DNA of 64,000 nt from Clostridia bacterium (GTDB taxonomy: Bacteria > Bacillota > Clostridia > Oscillospirales > CAG-272): contig JAFYMF010000057.1 of the NCBI GenBank assembly GCA_017556745.1, positions 67,485 through 131,484 of the forward strand, read 5' to 3'. A program made the position numbers and the translations under genes. The notes beneath the pieces were generated by a model. It was not told the origin of the DNA. It saw nothing but the letters and a program-made list of their open reading frames with translations, and did no database searches. Below are positions 9,694 to 47,124 of this stretch, one piece after another (the first letter of the stretch is position 1; each line of letters begins with the position of its first letter).

Positions 9694-10883
9694 TTCAAAT
9701 CCTCGCTTTCACATTTGTCACCGTCTATAATTAACATAGTATCAATTCCTCTGTTCAAAGCATTAATGCGTGTCTCGTTTACAGTATCAAAGCAGGAAAG
9801 CTCTACAGAATAGCCGTCATCTTCAAGCTCTGTACGCTTAACATAAGCCTTTGCTATATACTCGCTTTCGCAGAAAATAACAGCAGTCTTCTCTTTCTTT
9901 TCCCCTGCTCTGTAACCGCTCTTGTAAAGGGTATCAGACACAGCATCCACGTTAATTGCAAATCCTACGGAAGGAACATCAAAACCAAAGTTTCCGACAA
10001 GGTTATCGTAACGTCCGCCACTGAGAACAGGCTCACCCGCACCCTCGATAAATCCGCGGAAGACGATTCCGGTATAGTAATCAAGCTTGTGAACTATACC
10101 AAGGTCAATGAGAACTCTGTCGCCGTATCCTGCTTCTTCAAGGAGTGCATACGTTCTCTTTACCTTCTCAAGTGCTCCGAGAGCACCTGTATTGTTTCCT
10201 GCAATCTTGGCAGCACGGTCAAACACCTCTTTACCGCCGAAAAGAAGAGGAATCTGCATTATACGCTCGATACCCGCGGTATCACCGATAAAACCGAGAG
10301 AAACGGCATTCTTGCTATCAACATAATCACGTACGATCGCCTTTTCCTCGTCTGTCATGTCAAGCTCAGAAATAAGAGCATTATAGAACTCAACGTGACC
10401 GATCTCTATTTTGAAATCGGCGCCGAGAGCCTCAAGCGCTTTAATTGCGGTAGTAATACATATCATATCACTCTTGATACCGTCAAGGCCTATAAGCTCA
10501 ACACCGCTCTGCATTATCTCATTTCTCTTTCCGGAATAACCGAGATTAATACGGTATACGTTCTGGCTATAGGAAAGCTTAATAGGTAACGGCATATCCT
10601 TAAGCTTGGTTGCCGCAACTCTCGCAATAGGTGTAGTACAGTCAGGACGAAGCACAAGAAGTCTTCCTGCGTTATCGGTAAGCTTATACATATTCTCCTG
10701 AGGAAGAGGCTGACCTGTAAAATTAAAGGCATCGTAATATTCAAGGGTAGGTGTGGTCACCTTGGCAAAGCCTTCCTTTTCGTATACCGACTCAAGCTTT
10801 TGAGCAATTTCACTCTCAAGCACTACCTCGTCGTATATCATATCTCTCATTCCGTCCGGAATATTTATCTTTAATTTGTACAT
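9690..10883 (-). CDS. hisZ: ATP phosphoribosyltransferase regulatory subunit (HisRS-like)
   Basis: Histidyl-tRNA-synthetase paralogue without aminoacylation activity; it assembles with short HisG and provides histidine feedback control. The 397-residue protein keeps class II synthetase motifs such as PTLEYYD, LRPDCTTPIARVAA and YSQNVYR, and the histidine-pocket-like LDYYTGIVFRGF. Its placement as first gene of the his operon, directly before short hisG, supports HisZ over a true HisS, although the C-terminal part (about 320-397) resembles a degenerate anticodon-binding domain. ATG at 10883 follows GAGGAG. Confidence 0.92.
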   Translation of the reverse strand: MYKLKINIPDGMRDMIYDEVVLESEIAQKLESVYEKEGFAKVTTPTLEYYDAFNFTGQPLPQENMYKLTDNAGRLLVLRPDCTTPIARVAATKLKDMPLPIKLSYSQNVYRINLGYSGKRNEIMQSGVELIGLDGIKSDMICITTAIKALEALGADFKIEIGHVEFYNALISELDMTDEEKAIVRDYVDSKNAVSLGFIGDTAGIERIMQIPLLFGGKEVFDRAAKIAGNNTGALGALEKVKRTYALLEEAGYGDRVLIDLGIVHKLDYYTGIVFRGFIEGAGEPVLSGGRYDNLVGNFGFDVPSVGFAINVDAVSDTLYKSGYRAGEKKEKTAVIFCESEYIAKAYVKRTELEDDGYSVELSCFDTVNETRINALNRGIDTMLIIDGDKCESEDLK

Positions 10884-10920
10884 TTCAAAAAACTCCTCAG
10901 TTTTGCTTTATTGCTTTAAT

Positions 10921-10949
10921 ATATTAACACATTAAAGTAACTTTGTCAA
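10921..10949 (-). promoter_or_regulatory. Consensus sigma-A promoter of the his operon
   Basis: On the minus strand TTGACA (10944-10949) and TAATAT (10921-10926) are spaced by exactly 17 bases. The start point would be near 10914, leaving about a 30-base leader. That is too short for a T-box or a leader-peptide attenuator, so control by one of those devices at this promoter is unlikely. Confidence 0.82.
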
Positions 10950-10966
10950 TATCAATATCCACTAAA

Positions 10967-13900
10967 TCAGAACAAGGTAAGCTGATTTGTTTCTGACAAA
11001 CCGTCAAGAACACCGTTTGCGGCAAGAATCTCCATTACACTCTTTGTTACCTTTGAACGTTGCTGGAGCTCCTCGCGAGAAATGATTTCTCCTTCCTCTC
11101 TTACTGCCACAAGGCTCCTTGCTGCGTTCTCGCCAATTCCGCTAAGTGCGGAAAATGGCATACGAATCGCTCCGTTTTCCGGCAAGAAAGCAAATGAATC
11201 AGATTTGTAAAGATCAACAGGCAGAAACTTTATACCCCTTGCAAGAGCCTCTTCAACAAGCTGAAGAGTAGCAAACATTGCATTTTCCTTCTGTGAGGCT
11301 TCCATACCCTTTGCCTTTATTTCCTCAAGCTTGGCACGAACCACCTTTTTACCTCCGGATGCTATCTCTGCATCAAATTCTCCGGGAGCTGCAGTAAAGA
11401 ATCCCGCATAGAACTCAAGAGGCATATGAACCTTATACCAAGCTATTCTTATAGCACTCATAACGTATGCTGCTGCGTGAGCCTTGGGGAACATGTAACG
11501 GATCTTCTGAAGAGAATCAATGTACCAATCGGGAACATTATGCTCCTTCATTGCCGCCATCATATCGTCAGGAATGGGCTTACCCTTTTTATTTTTTCTG
11601 ACCATCTCCATTATCTTGAATGACATACTGTTATCAAGACCGTAGTTGATAAGGTCAAGCATTATACCGTCACGTGTACCGATAACGTGTCCAAGGTCAC
11701 AAATACCCTGGTCAATAAGATCCTTTGCGTTACCAAGCCAAACACCCTCTCCGTGGGTAAGACCGGACACCTGAAGAAGATCGGCAAAGTCCTTGGGTCT
11801 TGAAGCAATAAGAACGGGCTTAACAAAGCTTGTACCAAGCTCAGGGATACCGAGAGTACCTGTTTCACTGTCAAAGAGGTCAGATGGCTTGATTCCAAGG
11901 GCCTCTGTTCCGGTGAACAGCTTATACACATCGGGATCGTTCATTTTAACGTCCATTACACTTGTATTTGTGAATCGTTCGATAGCCTTGTACTTGGTGG
12001 GCACATCGTGGCCAAGCTCGTCAAGCTTCAGTATCGTATCATGAAGATAGCTAAACGCGAAATGTGTTGTAATAGTATCTGAATTAGGGTCGTCTGCCGG
12101 GTGCTGGATAGGTGTAAAATCGTAAATATCGTATTCCTTCGGTATAACGATGATACCTCCGGGATGCTGACCGGTAGTACGCTTTACACCAACACAACGG
12201 GAAATTATACGGCTGATCTCTGCCTTGCCCAGTGATATCTCCTTACTCTCAATATACTTGTTTACAAAACCATAAGCAGTCTTATCCGCGAGAGTACCGA
12301 GAGTTCCCGCTCTGAACACGTTCTCTTTTCCGAAAAGATCACCGGTATATTTATGTACCCTTGCCTGAACCTCACCTGAAAAGTTAAGGTCTATATCGGG
12401 AGATTTATCGCCGTAGAATCCAAGGAAAGTCTCAAAGGGGATGTCATGTCCGTCGGAATACATTATCTCTCCGCATACCGGACAGTTTTTATCAGGGTAA
12501 TCAAAGCCGGATCCATATCCGCCCTCATTTGAGAAATCGCTGTATTTACATTTTCTGCAAACGTAATGGGGAGGCAGAGGATTAACCTCAGATATACCGC
12601 CGGCAAAAGCAACGTATGAAGAACCGACCGATCCTCGAGAACCAACAAGATACCCCTGCTCTTCACTATATTTAACAAGCTTTCTCGCGATCATATAAAG
12701 AACCGCAAAACCGTTCTTTATAATCGAAGTAAGCTCTCTGTCAAGTCTATTCTTAACAATATCCGGAAGGGGTGAACCGTAAAGCTCCTCGGAGAACTTA
12801 TAACATTCTCTCTCAAGATCCTCTTCCGCGCCTTCAATGCTGGGTGTATATGCCCCCTTGGGGATGGGACGTACCTCGCCCACCATATCTGCGATCATAT
12901 TGGGATTGGTAATAACAACATCCCGTGCCTTTTCCTCGCCGAGATATGAAAATTCCTCAAGCATCTCATCGGTAGTACGCATATAAAGACCGACATCCCT
13001 ATCCGCATCCTTGAATTTCATACCGGCAAGAAGTATCTTACGGTAGAGCTCGTCCTCTTTATTCATAAAGTGGGCATCACATGTGGCAACAACAGGCTTA
13101 CCGGCTTTCTCACCCAGTTCTACGATACGTCGGTTAAAGTCACGAAGCTGCTCATCGTTTGCCGCTTTTCCCTCCGCAATAAGGAAACGGTTATTACAGA
13201 TAGGCTGTATTTCAAGATAATCGTAAAAGGACGCTATCTCGAGCAGAGATTGCTCCGGCTTATTTTCAAGCATAGCGGAAAACAATTCTCCCGCCTCACA
13301 GGCAGAACCGATTATGAGTCCCTCTCTATGCTCCTCAAGAATGGTACGAGGTATTCTCGGTACCTTTTTGTAATAATCAAGATAACTTGCGGAAATAAGC
13401 TTATAAAGATTTTTAAGACCTACGAGATCCTTTACAAGAATAATCTGGTGATATGTTTTAAGCTTAAGAGGATCGGAATTTTCACTCATAGCTTCAAGCA
13501 TCTGCGGAATATTACCAACACCCTCAAGTTTAAGCTTTTCGGTCATACATACGAAAATCTTGCCGAGAATAGCGGCATCATCACAAGCTCTGTGGTGGTG
13601 GAAATCGCCCAATCCAAAATACTGGGCAAGATTATCAAGCTTATGCCGCTTAAGATCCGTATTAAGATATCTTGACAATGCAACGGTATCAAGATAAGGA
13701 TTTTCAAAGGGAATTCCAAGATTATCAGCCGCATATCTGATAAAGCTGATATCAAATGTAGCATTATGAGCAATAAGAAGACGGTCACCTGCAAACTCAA
13801 GGAATGCTCTCAATGCTTCCTCTATCTTCGGTGCGCCTTTTACCATCTCATCGGTAATAGAGGTAAGTTTTGTTATCTCCTCGGGGATAGGACATTCCGG

Positions 13901-15412
13901 ATCAACGAATGTATTAAACTCCTTAACCACTTCACCGCCGGACAAAAGCACCGCACCAATCTCGGTTATCTTACAGTTCATAGGTGAAAGTCCTGTAGTC
14001 TCTATATCAAAGACAATAAATTCACCGTCAAACTCAGCATCGCATTCACCGTATATTGCACGTGAGGTATCATCTACAAAATAAGCTTCCATTCCGTAGA
14101 TAACCTTCATTCCGAGTGCCTCAGATGCCTCCATAGCCTCAGGAAAAGCTTGTACGTTTCCGTGGTCTGTTATAGCTACTGCCTTATGGCCCCACGCATG
14201 CGCGGTCTTTACTATTTCCTTCGGAGAAATAATAGCATCCATTGTTGACATGTTGGTGTGAAGATGGAGCTCGACTCTCTTGTCCTCGGCATTGTCTTTT
14301 CTCTTCAGTTTTTTTACTTTAACAGCGGCCTTGGGCATAAATACGAGCTCGCCGTCAAATTTATCAAGACGCGCATTACCGCTTACAACAACAATATCTC
14401 CCTTGGCTATACTCTCGGTAAAGCCCTTGACCTTTTCCTGCTCGGCACGCTTAGATTCCTCCATATCCTCATTCTGCTCATAGGATACCTTCATATATAT
14501 CGAAGAATCACCGTCGTATATTCCGATCGTAACATTTACTCTTTCACCACCACGGAATTCCTTAGTGGTAATTTCAAATATCTCACCTATTATAAGAGTA
14601 CGCTTTCCCGATGTAAGATCACGTATCTTGGTTACACCGGTAAGTGAGAAATCCTCACCGTAGAACAGTTCAGGAGAAGAAAGGTCATAGGTAACCGCAC
14701 CTATCTCAAGTCTATCGTTTTCAATGATTGCGGCCTTATCATCAGTCTCAATCAAAGATGCAACCCTGCGATAAACCGGCTTATCCGGTTCATTCTCAGG
14801 GGTAGGCGGTGCTGCAGCGGTAATTTTTCTTGCTTCATTTGCCGCCTTAACACCTGCAATAAAGTCATTCTGTTCCTTTGCAAACAGTTCTCTTCTCTCT
14901 TTTTCTCTCTCCTCATAATCATCGGAGCGAGTCACTTTAACGTTATATCTTTTAGAAAATTCAGAAAAAATTATATTAGAAATTACGTCAGCTGTACCGC
15001 CATTGTTGATAAGTTCAATACCACCGTCACCAAAAGGAATTGTAATGGTTATCAGTGAATCCTCGATACGGTAATCATACTGACCGAAAAATCCGTTTGC
15101 AACTACACCGACGCGACAAGCCTCGGTAAGTATCTGCGGCATATAGTCTGCTGTAAAAAGCTCTGCCGGATAATGGGGTAAAATTTTAGTAGCATTGATG
15201 CCGTATGCCTCACGTATACCGCTCTCTAGCTCGTAAAGCTCACCTTTAGGGATTATGTGCTGAAAATCAGCCTCTATCTCAAGGATTCTGCGATCATTAT
15301 CTGCACGAAGGCGTACCCCCGACGCCTCTGCCAGAATTTTTTTCTGGGAAGGAGTCGGAGAATACTTTTTCAGCATATCAAGAAGTGATCTGTTACTGTT
15401 TTCTCCGCTCAT
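10967..15412 (-). CDS. polC: DNA polymerase III alpha subunit, PolC type
   Basis: Replicative polymerase of low-GC Gram-positives, 1481 residues. Domains in order: N-terminal domain with OB fold (about 240-345, includes KIRDLTSGKRTLIIGEI), PHP domain starting VELHLHTNMSTMDA near 380, the inserted 3'-5' DEDDh exonuclease starting VFDIETTGL near 466 with IAHNATFDISFI and HHRACDDA, then PHP continuation, a zinc-binding C2C2 motif (CRKC ... CPVC) and the catalytic palm-finger domain with PDIDLNFSGE (catalytic Asp pair). Exonuclease and polymerase residues look intact. It starts 6 bases after ispG and is probably the last gene of the uppS-cdsA-dxr-rseP-ispG-polC unit. Confidence 0.98.
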   Translation of the reverse strand: MSGENSNRSLLDMLKKYSPTPSQKKILAEASGVRLRADNDRRILEIEADFQHIIPKGELYELESGIREAYGINATKILPHYPAELFTADYMPQILTEACRVGVVANGFFGQYDYRIEDSLITITIPFGDGGIELINNGGTADVISNIIFSEFSKRYNVKVTRSDDYEEREKERRELFAKEQNDFIAGVKAANEARKITAAAPPTPENEPDKPVYRRVASLIETDDKAAIIENDRLEIGAVTYDLSSPELFYGEDFSLTGVTKIRDLTSGKRTLIIGEIFEITTKEFRGGERVNVTIGIYDGDSSIYMKVSYEQNEDMEESKRAEQEKVKGFTESIAKGDIVVVSGNARLDKFDGELVFMPKAAVKVKKLKRKDNAEDKRVELHLHTNMSTMDAIISPKEIVKTAHAWGHKAVAITDHGNVQAFPEAMEASEALGMKVIYGMEAYFVDDTSRAIYGECDAEFDGEFIVFDIETTGLSPMNCKITEIGAVLLSGGEVVKEFNTFVDPECPIPEEITKLTSITDEMVKGAPKIEEALRAFLEFAGDRLLIAHNATFDISFIRYAADNLGIPFENPYLDTVALSRYLNTDLKRHKLDNLAQYFGLGDFHHHRACDDAAILGKIFVCMTEKLKLEGVGNIPQMLEAMSENSDPLKLKTYHQIILVKDLVGLKNLYKLISASYLDYYKKVPRIPRTILEEHREGLIIGSACEAGELFSAMLENKPEQSLLEIASFYDYLEIQPICNNRFLIAEGKAANDEQLRDFNRRIVELGEKAGKPVVATCDAHFMNKEDELYRKILLAGMKFKDADRDVGLYMRTTDEMLEEFSYLGEEKARDVVITNPNMIADMVGEVRPIPKGAYTPSIEGAEEDLERECYKFSEELYGSPLPDIVKNRLDRELTSIIKNGFAVLYMIARKLVKYSEEQGYLVGSRGSVGSSYVAFAGGISEVNPLPPHYVCRKCKYSDFSNEGGYGSGFDYPDKNCPVCGEIMYSDGHDIPFETFLGFYGDKSPDIDLNFSGEVQARVHKYTGDLFGKENVFRAGTLGTLADKTAYGFVNKYIESKEISLGKAEISRIISRCVGVKRTTGQHPGGIIVIPKEYDIYDFTPIQHPADDPNSDTITTHFAFSYLHDTILKLDELGHDVPTKYKAIERFTNTSVMDVKMNDPDVYKLFTGTEALGIKPSDLFDSETGTLGIPELGTSFVKPVLIASRPKDFADLLQVSGLTHGEGVWLGNAKDLIDQGICDLGHVIGTRDGIMLDLINYGLDNSMSFKIMEMVRKNKKGKPIPDDMMAAMKEHNVPDWYIDSLQKIRYMFPKAHAAAYVMSAIRIAWYKVHMPLEFYAGFFTAAPGEFDAEIASGGKKVVRAKLEEIKAKGMEASQKENAMFATLQLVEEALARGIKFLPVDLYKSDSFAFLPENGAIRMPFSALSGIGENAARSLVAVREEGEIISREELQQRSKVTKSVMEILAANGVLDGLSETNQLTLF

Positions 15413-39992: not shown

Positions 39993-40570
39993 AATGAAAC
40001 GGTTAAGAAGTGTTTTTTTTCACAACAATCATTATTCTTATAATGGTCGTTCTATCCGGATGTTCTTTGGATTCTATAAAAGAAGTAGATTCTTTTTCTG
40101 ACCTTTTATCAAAAAGCTATACCGTAACATTTAATGCAAATGGCGGTGAACTTATCTCCGGTTCACTTGAACAGACTGCAAAAAAGGGTGAATCGGCTAT
40201 CGCTCCGGAGTTCACCGCTGATATGATGGTTTTCACCGGTTGGGACAAAGATTTTTCTGATGTTAGAAGTGATATAAAAGTTACCGCTTTGTGGGAGAGA
40301 AAAGTTCTCTCGGGTCAGGAAATTTCTGACTATTCCGATTCAAGAGTCGCAACAGTATATGTATATGACGGTGCAAACAAAGTTAATTGTTCCGGATCCG
40401 GATTCTTTATTGATTCTAATGGTACATTTGTAACAAATTACCACGTTATTGAATATGCGGAATCCATCACAATTGAAATGTCTGATGGTGCAACCTATAA
40501 TGTTTCAAAGGTAATAAAGTTCAGCGACATGTATGATTTAGCTGTACATCATTTTTATAGAATTTTTTAA
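39993..40570 (+). pseudogene. Lipoprotein with InlB-type repeat and truncated trypsin-like domain, frameshifted
   Basis: ATG at 39993 opens a basic signal-peptide start (MKRLRSVF) that runs out of frame at a tract of eight T (40013-40020). The continuation lies in the next frame: hydrophobic segment, lipobox VLSGC, a Listeria/Bacteroides (InlB B-type) repeat of about 60 residues (VTFNANGGEL ... TGWDKDFSDV ... VTALWERK), then a trypsin-like start with GSGFFIDSNGTFVTNYHVI (catalytic His) and DMYDLAV (catalytic Asp). The Ser half of the protease is missing; the frame ends after DLAVHHFYRIF. One T less would restore the signal peptide. Read it as a decayed or possibly phase-variable gene. Confidence 0.65.
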
Positions 40571-42248: not shown

Positions 42249-44081
42249 ATGTCAAACAAAAAAATCTTACAGGGAATTTCCCTTCTGTTGTCTCTTATTC
42301 TCATCACAAGTATCTTCCCCATTGATGTTAACGGGCAAACAACTGACACAGGGATTGTAACAGATACAGCCACCGAATCAACAAAGAATTCAATTATTGC
42401 GTACTTCGGTATAGTTAGTTCTAATTCATACATACGTATTGAACCATCAGCGAAAACCGGTAAAAATATTATGGGTGTTGATGGTAACCCCATAACACTT
42501 TCCAAGGGGTTTGTGGTTCCGATACTCGGTCAAGTTCCAAGTCAAGATACAAGTTACCCCAACGATTGGTATAAGATACGTTACGTATATATGAATACCG
42601 GAGTTGAATACGAGTGTTACATTTACAGCGACAATGTTATCAAACGTCCGGCAGCTATATACTCGTTATCTGATAATGAATTCGAAAACTCCATCTCTCT
42701 TTTCCCCGAAAGCTACAAGCCATACCTCAGGGCTCTGCACGCATTATATCCAAACTGGAGATTTGAGGCAAGAGTATCAACTATTGACTTCACCCAGTTT
42801 GTAAAAACACAGGCAGAGGTAAAACAAGGAAACAAAGGTGAAACTACTTCTCAGTCTTCTATCCACAAAACCAGAGAAAACGAAAGTTGGCGAAAGAGTA
42901 GTTCCCTCGTTGACGGTAAATCGTGGTATCATGCGGCGGACGATGTTGTTGCATATTATTCCGACCCACGTAATTTTTTGAACGAAGTTGATATATTCCA
43001 GTTCGAATCTCTTGCTTACAGTAAAACCGGACATACGATCGAGGGTGTGCAAAAGATTCTCAACGGTACATTTATGGAAAGCCAAAAAATAACAGACCTT
43101 AACGGTAATTCTATAAGCTATGCAGAAGCTTACATGATCGCTGCAGAGCAATCAAAAGTCAGTCCGTACAGTCTTGCCATAAGTACCATTCTTGAAAACG
43201 GAAAGACCGGAACAATGCTGACAAACGGTTCACGTGGGTATTATAACTACTTTGGTATAGGTTCGGTTCCCGGCGGCAGTCCACAGGAAAACGGACTTGC
43301 CTTTGCTCAAACAGGTGGAAGTTGGAGCCAAGAGATGAAAAATCAGTGTCTCATCCCTTGGAATACCCCCTATAAAGCAATTGTCGGCGGTGCCTTGTTT
43401 ATGGGTAAGAGCTATATAAGTATCGGACAGAATACTGCGTATTTTAAAAAGTTTGATATTTTCTCTCTTGAGGACGGTACTGCTATACACCAATATATGC
43501 AGGATATCGAATATCCGGTCAAGGAGGCACTTCAGGCTTATAAAAATTACAGTGCTCTCGGTATACTTGCATATTCAAGAACCTTTATAATTCCGGTATA
43601 TCAGAACATGCCCGAGATTCCAACCGCCCTTCCCGGAACAACAGCACTGTCTCTGGTTGCAGATGCGGGAAAAGACATGATTCTCAGTTCATCCTATAAA
43701 ATGACAGGGGATTACATTTCAGGAATACAGCCCGGTATTTCCCTCGAAGCATTTAAAACCGGATTTATTCTCGGTCAGGGTGTTACCATGACTGTAAATG
43801 GAGATAAGGTGGGTACAGGCACCACGGTAGTGTTCACCAAAGAAGGACTTACAAAAACATATACAGTAGTTATCAGAGGCGACATAAACGGTGACTCAAA
43901 AGTAGACGTATCCGATCTACTGATGATACGTAATCAGATACTTGATACCACTACACTTACCCCCAGCCAAATGATTGCTGCGAATATCGACGGTCAGGGT
44001 GGAATTGAAATTGTAGACCTATTAAATCTTAGAAATGGAATCATCGGTACATACACTATTACACAGGAGAACATAAAGTAA
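42249..44081 (+). CDS. Secreted N-acetylglucosaminidase with C-terminal dockerin-like module
   Basis: A 610-residue exported protein: signal peptide (about 1-30), an SH3-like region (about 50-135), a glucosaminidase domain (about 215-410; YAEAYMIAAEQSKVSPYSLAISTILENGKTG with the likely catalytic Glu near 315, and GYYNYFGIGSVPGG), then a beta-rich segment and a dockerin type I-like pair at about 550-605. The first Ca loop, GDINGDSKVDVSDLLMIRN, is canonical; the second, ANIDGQGGIEIVDLLNLRN, lacks some Asp ligands. It should cut peptidoglycan glycan strands outside the cell. ATG 42249 follows GGAGA; an upstream TTG is rejected because the ribosome site would lie in the gene. The next gene encodes a cohesin. 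Confidence 0.85.
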   Translation: MSNKKILQGISLLLSLILITSIFPIDVNGQTTDTGIVTDTATESTKNSIIAYFGIVSSNSYIRIEPSAKTGKNIMGVDGNPITLSKGFVVPILGQVPSQDTSYPNDWYKIRYVYMNTGVEYECYIYSDNVIKRPAAIYSLSDNEFENSISLFPESYKPYLRALHALYPNWRFEARVSTIDFTQFVKTQAEVKQGNKGETTSQSSIHKTRENESWRKSSSLVDGKSWYHAADDVVAYYSDPRNFLNEVDIFQFESLAYSKTGHTIEGVQKILNGTFMESQKITDLNGNSISYAEAYMIAAEQSKVSPYSLAISTILENGKTGTMLTNGSRGYYNYFGIGSVPGGSPQENGLAFAQTGGSWSQEMKNQCLIPWNTPYKAIVGGALFMGKSYISIGQNTAYFKKFDIFSLEDGTAIHQYMQDIEYPVKEALQAYKNYSALGILAYSRTFIIPVYQNMPEIPTALPGTTALSLVADAGKDMILSSSYKMTGDYISGIQPGISLEAFKTGFILGQGVTMTVNGDKVGTGTTVVFTKEGLTKTYTVVIRGDINGDSKVDVSDLLMIRNQILDTTTLTPSQMIAANIDGQGGIEIVDLLNLRNGIIGTYTITQENIK

Positions 44082-45857
44082 ATGAAAAAAACGCTAAAAA
44101 TACTGACCTGCGTATTGCTTACAGTTGCTTTATCTATCCCTCTGACCATTATGGTTTCGGCAGCATCGGCAAAGGCATCAATTACGTTATCTGCCTCAAA
44201 TGTATATACAGACAAACAGGTAAAGGTTACCGTTACCTATAAAGCAGATGCCAATATCGGTGCTTGGGATTTTACTCTTAACTACGACCCATCTCTGCTT
44301 CAGTACGTTTCCGGAGCAGACAAGCATACTGCAGGTAGTTGCCGAATTATAAATGTAAACATGGGTACAGACAAGAGCAAGTCTGTTGCTTTTACTGTTG
44401 TTTTCAATACTCTTGCGGTGGGTAATGTTGAATTTACTACGTCCACCAATGGTATTGTTGGAGAAGACTCCGCAAAAATCACAGCCACTGAGGCCTCCGC
44501 AATCCTTAAGATAACCAAGGAACCGGTGTACGTCCCCTCCGGTGTAAACACACTTTCCGATCTTTCTTTTGAAGAAGGAAAGATTTCTCCCGTTTTCGCC
44601 GCAGGCACAAATGAATACACACTCACAGTAGACTATCCCATAAAAAATCTGACAGTAAACGCTCCGGCTACACACAAACTAGCAACTGTATCGGTCAGCG
44701 GAGACAAGGAACTGGCGGTTGGTGAAAACACCGTTACCGTAACTGTAAAAGCCGAAAACGGAAAGAAAAACACCTACACAATAAAAGTAACGAGAAACGA
44801 ATCACCATATACTGCAGAAAAGGTAACCCTTGACGGTATTGAATACACATTCCCCATTGATGAAAGTCTAATTGCGATCCCTGACGGTTTTGCTATTTCT
44901 AAGGCATCATTTAACGGAAAAGATGTTCTTGCATATGAAAACATGACAGGGTCGCTTTGCATAGTTGCTCTTGAAAAGCCATTCATTGAAGGTGATGAAA
45001 CCGAAGAAAAATATGTTTGGTTCGTATATCACAAGGATAAGTCGACATTTGAGCCCTACATATCTTATTCTCCCGGTGCAATGAACTATGTAATTCTCAC
45101 TCCTCCTGAGGGATTTACTCCTCCGGAAGGATATTTTGAGGAACATATGAATATAGGCAACAAAAATATAATCGCCTATAAAAACAGTCTGTTTGATGAA
45201 AGATTCTCCCTTATCTATGCGTCCCCGGTAAACGGTACATCCGGAATATACGTTTACGATTCTCTTGATAATACAATGCAGTTCTATATGACCTACGACG
45301 GTCAACCAACGAAGAAAACCGTAGATGATCTGAATGCAAAAATGGAAAGCATTATCGCTGAAAAAAACGGCGTTATTGACGGGATCACAGAAGAAAGAGA
45401 TGCTCTCGCAGAGGACAAGGAATTGTACGGAATTATAATCCTTTCTTGCTTTGGTGCAATTCTTTTACTCATAATAATTCTGATTATTGTTGCCGTAAGA
45501 AAAGGTAAGAAAAATAAGAAAAACACCGCCGAAGATTTCGACAAAGAGGAAAGCGAAACACAGCTCAATGAGATATTCACCGAACAGTCCCCTGTATTTG
45601 TAGCCCCTGCACATAAGCCGGTGGTAACTGCAAATTCAAATAAGGAAAAAATATCACAGTACGACGAAGAATCTCTTAACGTTACTTCAAATCGAATCAA
45701 AAAGCTTACTGAAGAACTCATCCGTGAACCTATCCCCGCCCCTGTTACTAAACCGGCTCCGGATAAAAAGGTATCTATCCCTACCTCGACTCCGCCCAAG
45801 AGAAGAAGACCTACAAGAGCGATCCTTCCCGAGGACATAACTAAACATTCAAGATGA
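44082..45857 (+). CDS. Membrane-anchored cohesin-domain protein
   Basis: A 591-residue protein: signal peptide (about 1-30), cohesin domain (about 31-150; ASITLSASNVYTDKQVKVTV ... GAWDFTLNYDPSLLQYVSG), cadherin-like beta-sandwich domain (about 160-245; NTLSDLSFEEGKISPVF ... TYTIKVTRNE), an unknown domain (about 250-410), a short coiled coil, one transmembrane helix (about 450-472) and a charged cytoplasmic tail of about 115 residues. It starts directly at the stop of the dockerin-bearing glucosaminidase. The pairing suggests the cohesin holds the hydrolase at the membrane and passes a signal or tether inside; this is inferred, not shown. Confidence 0.83.
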   Translation: MKKTLKILTCVLLTVALSIPLTIMVSAASAKASITLSASNVYTDKQVKVTVTYKADANIGAWDFTLNYDPSLLQYVSGADKHTAGSCRIINVNMGTDKSKSVAFTVVFNTLAVGNVEFTTSTNGIVGEDSAKITATEASAILKITKEPVYVPSGVNTLSDLSFEEGKISPVFAAGTNEYTLTVDYPIKNLTVNAPATHKLATVSVSGDKELAVGENTVTVTVKAENGKKNTYTIKVTRNESPYTAEKVTLDGIEYTFPIDESLIAIPDGFAISKASFNGKDVLAYENMTGSLCIVALEKPFIEGDETEEKYVWFVYHKDKSTFEPYISYSPGAMNYVILTPPEGFTPPEGYFEEHMNIGNKNIIAYKNSLFDERFSLIYASPVNGTSGIYVYDSLDNTMQFYMTYDGQPTKKTVDDLNAKMESIIAEKNGVIDGITEERDALAEDKELYGIIILSCFGAILLLIIILIIVAVRKGKKNKKNTAEDFDKEESETQLNEIFTEQSPVFVAPAHKPVVTANSNKEKISQYDEESLNVTSNRIKKLTEELIREPIPAPVTKPAPDKKVSIPTSTPPKRRRPTRAILPEDITKHSR

Positions 45858-45862
45858 AAAAC

Positions 45863-45897
45863 AAAAAAAGAAGGCTGCGATCAGCCTTCTTTTTTTA
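45863..45897 (+). terminator. Bidirectional terminator between the cohesin gene and the Ig-like gene
   Basis: 15-bp stem of A-run plus GAAGGCTG and its complement (45863-45877 and 45882-45896), CGAT loop, followed by T on the plus strand and the reverse on the minus strand. Confidence 0.88.
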
Positions 45898-47124
45898 GTT
45901 TTTACCATTATTATTTTTAATTGACATATACTTAGATGCAATAGCCGAAAGAGTTTTTGAACGTCCGAAGCTATAACCGGAAATAGCCGCAAAAGCCGTT
46001 GCAGAAAACATACCGAACAGCATTATTGCAACCCACCACGGAAACCCACTGTCATACTCTCTTTTATCATCTGTTATGTCATCTTCACTACCTATATATT
46101 CAGTAGTAAGTACAGTAGTATCGTGTATTACCTCAGTTACAGTATTTTCTGTTGTTTCACTTACAACAGTTGTATCATCTGCCACTACTGTTGTATCTGT
46201 TTTCTCAAGTTTGGGAATTGTCCTTGTTTCGGTCTCTCCACAATCAGAACAACTGCGGCTTTCACTTCCCTCTTTGGATTCTGTTGCCGCGGTTACTGTG
46301 TTCCACTTGCTAAACTTGTGACCTGTTGCATTAATAACACGTTCTTCCGATGCATCACAGGAAGAACAATATCTTTCTTCTTTTCCCTTATCCGTGCATG
46401 TAGGTGGAATCGTTTCTTTATATTCACCAAAAGAATGATCGTGTCCTGTTACCGTTATTTTAGTAGTTACGCTTGTTCTGTTAGGACTATATGATCCCTC
46501 GTAAACAGCATTCACTATGCAAAAGTATTTAATGGTACCAACTCTGTCGGTATTAACCACCAGCGTATCGGTATTTGCGTTTACAACCTTATTAAAAACA
46601 CCGGTTTCCGGATCCTCTGCATACCACTGATATACGAGAGAACATTCATCTGATGAAGAAACACACTTGTACGTAATAGAAAGTTCTTCACCTTTTATTA
46701 CTTCATATCTTTCTTCAATGTCAATTTCCACATCCGGACGATCAACAGACACGGGATTAATCACGTTCAATGTAACAACATCACTTTTGATCAGATTTGA
46801 CGAATCTTCATACATATAGTACACCATACAATAGTAATGATATTCGCCGGGATAGAGAGTCTCCGGGGTATAATCACCGTTTTCTGTAGGTGATGTCACC
46901 GGGGTACCGTTTTCTCCATCTTCATCCGAACTGTACCATACGTACAGAACATTGCTGTCAGATACCTCTACCGCCTCACAAGAAAGTGTGACATTATCAC
47001 CTATATCTGCAGTCATACTATCAGACAGATACGTTATCTGACCATCCCCCGCCGCTGACACAAAAAGTGAAAAAGTTACGGCAGCAGCAAGAACTGTTAT
47101 TAAAAAAGATATTCTTCTACACAT
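45895..47124 (-). CDS. Surface protein with Ig-like domains and C-terminal membrane anchor
   Basis: A 409-residue protein: signal peptide (about 1-25), two Ig-like beta-sandwich domains (about 28-125 and 130-228; each with a VTLSC / ITYKC strand and a W-Y pattern), then two Cys-rich repeats (PTCTDKGKEERYCSSCD and ESRSCSDCGETETRTIP, about 242-305) of a type common in clostridial surface proteins, a Thr/Val-rich linker, and a transmembrane helix (about 368-390) with a short basic tail. Function is unknown; adhesion or scaffolding is likely from architecture. Convergent with the cohesin gene. Confidence 0.72.
   Translation of the reverse strand: MCRRISFLITVLAAAVTFSLFVSAAGDGQITYLSDSMTADIGDNVTLSCEAVEVSDSNVLYVWYSSDEDGENGTPVTSPTENGDYTPETLYPGEYHYYCMVYYMYEDSSNLIKSDVVTLNVINPVSVDRPDVEIDIEERYEVIKGEELSITYKCVSSSDECSLVYQWYAEDPETGVFNKVVNANTDTLVVNTDRVGTIKYFCIVNAVYEGSYSPNRTSVTTKITVTGHDHSFGEYKETIPPTCTDKGKEERYCSSCDASEERVINATGHKFSKWNTVTAATESKEGSESRSCSDCGETETRTIPKLEKTDTTVVADDTTVVSETTENTVTEVIHDTTVLTTEYIGSEDDITDDKREYDSGFPWWVAIMLFGMFSATAFAAISGYSFGRSKTLSAIASKYMSIKNNNGKN

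Follow-up and report, generated by a model that had tools for sequence, protein, structure and literature searches.

Introduction

Cohesin-dockerin pairs normally build cellulosomes. A single cell-anchored cohesin, as found in the locus described here, is likewise a property of the anchoring scaffoldins of these complexes (for example ScaE of R. flavefaciens, and the single-cohesin transmembrane proteins of H. luporum and C. cibarium), whereas the present locus comes with no scaffoldin and no plant-polysaccharide enzymes, and has one private enzyme per cohesin. A non-cellulosomal single cohesin-dockerin pairing has been described between secreted enzymes of C. perfringens, the NagJ/GH84C system (PDB 2jh2, 2w1n). 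There the cohesin is carried by an enzyme, whereas here it is carried by a one-pass membrane receptor whose gene directly follows that of its single enzyme, and that enzyme, unlike those of the NagJ/GH84C system, is a wall hydrolase. The nearest functional precedent was found in S. aureus, where SpdC, a membrane protein homologous to CAAX proteases, scaffolds the membrane-associated glucosaminidase SagB, which is thought to cut nascent strands (PMC10581084). In both cases a glucosaminidase of related type would be held by a membrane partner, but neither a cohesin nor a dockerin is involved in SagB-SpdC, and the adjoining partner here is a single-pass cohesin protein and not an SpdC/CAAX-protease-like one. 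Transmembrane proteins with a single cohesin and unclear binding partners were mentioned in a survey of 2024 (PMC11557425). In the papers searched, which were those available without subscription, no account was found of a peptidoglycan hydrolase that docks to an adjoining membrane cohesin, nor one of a dockerin-bearing SpoIID; given this scope, the absence of an earlier description is weak evidence.

A glucosaminidase with a C-terminal dockerin

The window, a stretch of 64,000 nucleotides from a contig of a gut-type Clostridia bacterium, contains two adjoining genes on the forward strand. Behind its signal peptide, the product of gene 1 has a catalytic region of glucosaminidase type, then a small beta domain and finally a type I dockerin, with the following features (window coordinates):

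42249..44081, + strand: gene 1 (P0001), secreted GH73-type glucosaminidase with C-terminal dockerin, 610 aa
42669..43634, + strand: GlcNAcase catalytic region, residues about 141-462, by phmmer match to AtlA/AtlE/SagB structures
43194-43196, + strand: putative catalytic Glu316, invariant among homologues
43671..43868, + strand: small beta domain before the dockerin, residues about 475-540, kept in relatives, no family assigned
43878..44036, + strand: type I dockerin PF00404, residues 544-596, Pfam above cut-off, E 1e-7
44037..44078, + strand: C-terminal tail IIGTYTITQENIK with [ILV]xQ motif, common to dockerins with an adjoining cohesin gene
44065..44069, + strand: putative ribosome-binding site of gene 2, within gene 1, AGGAG, 12 nt before the ATG

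The protein belongs to GH73 by homology and by its conserved putative catalytic Glu, with the autolysins AtlA/AtlE/SagB of the PDB matching the catalytic region at E values of 6e-8 to 2e-6 and Glu316 being maintained in all of the homologues compared (84/84). The Pfam glucosaminidase profile PF01832 scored below threshold (E 0.02), and the only NCBIfam match was SagB (E 2e-11), with 43 bits, far below the cut-off of 425 bits for NF052642. By homology to these enzymes, gene 1 would encode a cutter of peptidoglycan glycan strands.

The first-pass annotation had recognized a dockerin-like module on a peptidoglycan hydrolase and had described its second calcium loop as degenerate, and both observations hold. 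Loop 1 of the dockerin, DINGDSKVDVSD, is canonical, and loop 2, NIDGQGGIEIVD, has no Asp at positions 1 and 5, where it is canonical, so the duplicated calcium-binding loop-helix of a type I dockerin is present with one degenerate half. The same pattern was observed among 30 paired dockerins, of which 29 have a canonical loop 1 and seven, from several lineages and including that of gene 1, have a degenerate loop 2. The retention of loop 1 together with the degeneration of loop 2 in some pairs would suit one mode of binding within a 1:1 pair, and docking would need calcium at loop 1.

The C-terminal tail also distinguishes the paired dockerins, with an adjacent cohesin in 30/31 enzymes carrying the [ILV]xQ tail versus 4/15 without it (Fisher p 1e-6, for a strict pattern found post hoc and a test on related sequences). 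The sole tailed exception, L071, has a cohesin gene when read by eye. The 11 dockerin enzymes without an adjoining cohesin have other dockerin types, such as DALMILQYNAG.

A membrane-anchored cohesin encoded by the next gene

The TAA stop of gene 1 abuts the ATG of gene 2, and both genes are in frame. The product of gene 2 consists of a signal peptide, a cohesin, a cadherin-like domain, a juxtamembrane domain, one transmembrane helix and a tail:

44082..45857, + strand: gene 2 (P0002), monovalent membrane-anchored cohesin receptor, 591 aa
44178..44531, + strand: cohesin domain, residues about 33-150, by Pfam genome scan, family profile and predicted fold
44553..44795, + strand: cadherin-like beta sandwich PF12733, residues 158-238, Pfam E 6e-12
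45087..45341, + strand: juxtamembrane domain with the family motif YxYDxxExTxQRY, here YVYDSLDNTMQFY, residues invariant in the family
45432..45506, + strand: single transmembrane helix, residues about 451-475, hydropathy maximum 3.4 at residue 451
45507..45854, + strand: cytoplasmic tail of about 116 residues, length not kept in the family

The cohesin profile PF00963 gave 23.3 bits on the gene 2 protein alone, 0.8 bit below its cut-off of 24.1. When the whole genome was scanned it reached 32 bits, above the cut-off. Solved cohesins were matched by a profile built from 33 related N-terminal domains, the best match being that of C. perfringens GH84C, which is noncellulosomal (E 4e-8), and cohesins also ranked first when the predicted gene 2 cohesin was searched with Foldseek (TM on the target up to 0.78); the NagJ/GH84C cohesin is the top match by both profile and fold. 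Profiles, Foldseek, PF12733 and hydropathy agree with the earlier reading of this gene as a cohesin with a cadherin-like domain and one transmembrane helix. The long cytoplasmic tail which that reading included is present here, but it is not a conserved property, as tails across the family range from 3 to 217 residues or more, suggesting that anchoring, not tail signalling, is the common feature. Tail signalling as a core function was rejected on account of tails as short as 3 residues. Acidic tails were seen in the receptors of L064, L079, L084, L110 and L132, with ends such as DDDFEFFDL or DIDFIDFDDL, and such an end is a possible cytoplasmic docking peptide.

Two genes lie close to the pair in the window, as read by eye. 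The ORF at 40010-40570 (+) encodes a lipoprotein-like product that has an InlB-type repeat and the beginning of a trypsin-like protease domain and then stops early; this gene is possibly broken. The convergent neighbour at 45895-47124 (-) encodes an exported Ig-like protein with a C-terminal transmembrane helix.

Cohesins and dockerins of the genome

In the 2.43 Mb genome, sensitive profiles detected two dockerins, two cohesins and no others, arranged in two adjoining pairs, each with the dockerin gene before the cohesin gene. Besides the dockerin of gene 1 there is therefore only one other, with its own adjoining cohesin, and an adjacency by chance is excluded because the only two dockerins and two cohesins all lie in adjoining pairs. 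The second pair (L005 5220-9741, C32:19219-23740) is composed of an SGNH/GDSL-type hydrolase with a dockerin of a different type, ending in PESYPLY, followed by a cohesin protein with a PSTGD-like C-terminal transmembrane segment. Neither a multi-cohesin scaffoldin nor a large set of dockerin-bearing polysaccharide hydrolases was found when the genome was searched for them, and a cellulosome is ruled out by the content of two single cohesins and two dockerins.

Genomes G048 and G049 each contain one cohesin and one dockerin, adjoining and in the same order. In G049 (L037 1480-3414) the dockerin protein carries SH3, Ig-like and Listeria-Bacteroides repeats and is followed by a cohesin protein with two cadherin-like domains and a transmembrane helix, which represents another type of partner.

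Predicted docking of the dockerin into the cohesin

Since genes 1 and 2 are in frame, the dockerin and cohesin could be modelled as a natural read-through chain, with the signal peptide as the linker. From 43 aligned rows, 10 of them paired, AlphaFold2 returned a pTM of 0.80, with both domains above pLDDT 90 and the linker disordered. As a control, the cadherin domain of a dockerin-less pair was fused in the same way to its cohesin and gave a pTM of 0.52, likewise with domains above pLDDT 90; by our estimate, a pTM of about 0.55 is expected when the domains have no relative placement. The predicted placement of dockerin against cohesin is confident, and the model supports docking of the one into the other, though the value of 0.80 says nothing of private specificity, as AlphaFold2 may place any such pair by a learned dockerin-cohesin arrangement. 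Docking through the cadherin domain where the enzyme has no dockerin is not supported by the control.

Distribution of the pair across genomes

A homologue search of named genomes, in a sample biased to relatives of dockerin-bearing seeds, provided 80 loci. Of these, 48 contain a dockerin-bearing enzyme, 46 with enough downstream DNA, and a cohesin gene follows directly in 35/46 and is absent in 11; L138 and L071 were counted among the former by homology and by eye. These partners were called by an iterated HMM, which may over-reach for the weakest matches (L117, L124 and L136), and Pfam alone detects a cohesin in 9/35 and 7/22 partners. The cohesin partners of dockerin-bearing enzymes are nearly all membrane-anchored, with a transmembrane helix in all complete partners save the short ORF of L096. 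The same gene order was observed in G002, G048 and G050. In a class survey of 391 genomes, strong matches were obtained in 63, and a dockerin directly followed by a cohesin was counted by us in at least 32 genomes of 19 families. The adjacency is conserved in many bacteria that are only distantly related.

A GH73 enzyme without a dockerin is still followed by a cohesin-like protein in 21/80 loci, and these enzymes often have several SH3 domains and a terminal cadherin-like domain. Mobilitalea sibirica and Frisingicoccus caecimuris are among the carriers of such a dockerin-less pair. Docking by the dockerin therefore cannot be the only reason for the linkage. On the GH73 tree, a quick tree with several long branches, the dockerin state changes at least nine times.

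Other arrangements were also seen. In L078, L080, L082, L085, L087, L100, L101 and L104 cohesin genes lie to either side of the GH73-dockerin gene, and a short ORF of some 210 residues, also conserved, is located between these genes; L101 has a further dockerin-cohesin pair upstream. In L116, the pair (10038-14151, - strand) is convergent to genes that, by eye, resemble ftsW, mraY and the gene of a penicillin-binding protein.

Juxtamembrane domain and SpoIID-type enzymes

The juxtamembrane domain, located between the cadherin-like domain and the transmembrane helix, had no match in Pfam or the PDB. When used as the sole query, it matched 17/196 genomes of the class, and an N-terminal cohesin was present on the same protein in all 17. 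The enzyme next to this protein is of GH73 type in 14 genomes (10 with a dockerin and four without), while the other three (3/17), all of one family, have a SpoIID-type transglycosylase with a dockerin. As the seed rows were drawn from GH73 neighbours, the GH73 linkage is partly by descent, and the SpoIID cases were unexpected. In these three genomes (L165, L166 and L167 of G172, G218 and G120, respectively), a SpoIID-SH3-dockerin protein with the same C-terminal tail is followed by a member of the same receptor family. In G120 and G218, a second cohesin gene follows after about another 1-2 kb.

SpoIID is a peptidoglycan enzyme family, and its lytic transglycosylases are not homologous to GH73, although they occupy the same enzyme slot. 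Judged by sequence, one receptor family is common to two unrelated types of peptidoglycan glycan-strand cutter, which is the best evidence here for peptidoglycan as the substrate and strengthens the wall-remodelling reading. The substrate would be the cell's own peptidoglycan. The juxtamembrane domain is also maintained in lineages without the dockerin, suggesting that it probably has a function beyond anchoring.

Discussion

Our analysis suggests that the two genes quite probably form a dedicated two-part wall-remodelling unit, in which a private 1:1 membrane dock, made of noncellulosomal cohesin-dockerin parts, keeps a glycan-strand cutter near the membrane. The glucosaminidase would be exported as a soluble protein, its dockerin would plug into the cohesin of the co-translated membrane receptor, and the docked enzyme, held on the outer face of the cytoplasmic membrane, would cut glycan strands of new or membrane-proximal peptidoglycan. 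Docking in vivo is thus proposed on the basis of modelling and genetics, and by analogy to SagB-SpdC the role may be strand release or length control. The first-pass annotation had already proposed a two-part machine with the hydrolase docked to a membrane receptor, and it gains support from the model, the conserved adjacency and the SpoIID enzymes in the same slot.

A rather unlikely competing explanation is that the cadherin-like or juxtamembrane domains of the cohesin protein make it primarily a structural or sensing partner of GH73 enzymes, and that the dockerin was added in particular lineages without being the essential link. It would account for the finding that the same cohesin/cadherin/juxtamembrane/transmembrane protein follows dockerin-less GH73 enzymes in Lachnospiraceae and others, for the invariant juxtamembrane residues and for the repeated changes of dockerin state, whereas the control, with its pTM of 0.52, does not place the terminal cadherin domain confidently on the cohesin and the dockerin pair does place; the SpoIID enzymes before the same receptor carry a dockerin in all three genomes, which argues that the dockerin matters. 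We regard it as improbable that the pair is a cellulosome remnant or a surface enzyme held for feeding on foreign glycans (mucin, chitin or other cells), even though it is systems of this kind that dockerins and cohesins are best known for, and other gut bacteria have been proposed to possess a mucinolysome (PMC12997984). The genome has only two dockerins and no multi-cohesin scaffoldin, the closest solved relatives of the enzyme are autolysins, its alternative in the slot belongs to a peptidoglycan enzyme family, and the anchor is in the membrane, not in an exposed surface layer. Still more improbable is that binding by the dockerin has been lost and only a fossil adjacency is left, as the missing Asp residues of loop 2 might suggest, since such loops recur in paired dockerins of several lineages with loop 1 nearly always canonical, the gene order is kept across families and the model places the two domains together.

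Beyond the dedicated unit proposed for this locus, we put forward tentatively, at slightly less than even chances, that the cohesin/cadherin/juxtamembrane/transmembrane protein, with its new juxtamembrane domain, serves throughout Clostridia and Bacilli as a general port in the membrane for enzymes that cut the glycan of peptidoglycan, receiving GH73 or SpoIID through a dockerin or another contact depending on the lineage.

The question of how bacteria confine the enzymes that cut their own wall to the correct site is an old one, and to our knowledge few lineages have known membrane partners of such hydrolases. Components familiar from cellulose-digesting complexes appear to have been reused to hold wall-remodelling enzymes at the membrane. 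The pair would give gut Clostridia and Bacilli a plug-and-socket that fixes a glycan cutter to the membrane, would suggest partners for the membrane-anchored single-cohesin proteins of unclear partnership (PMC11557425), and would extend the use of cohesin-dockerin parts from plant fibre to the cell's own wall. If the general port is true, it would represent a widespread, undescribed class of wall-hydrolase control complexes.
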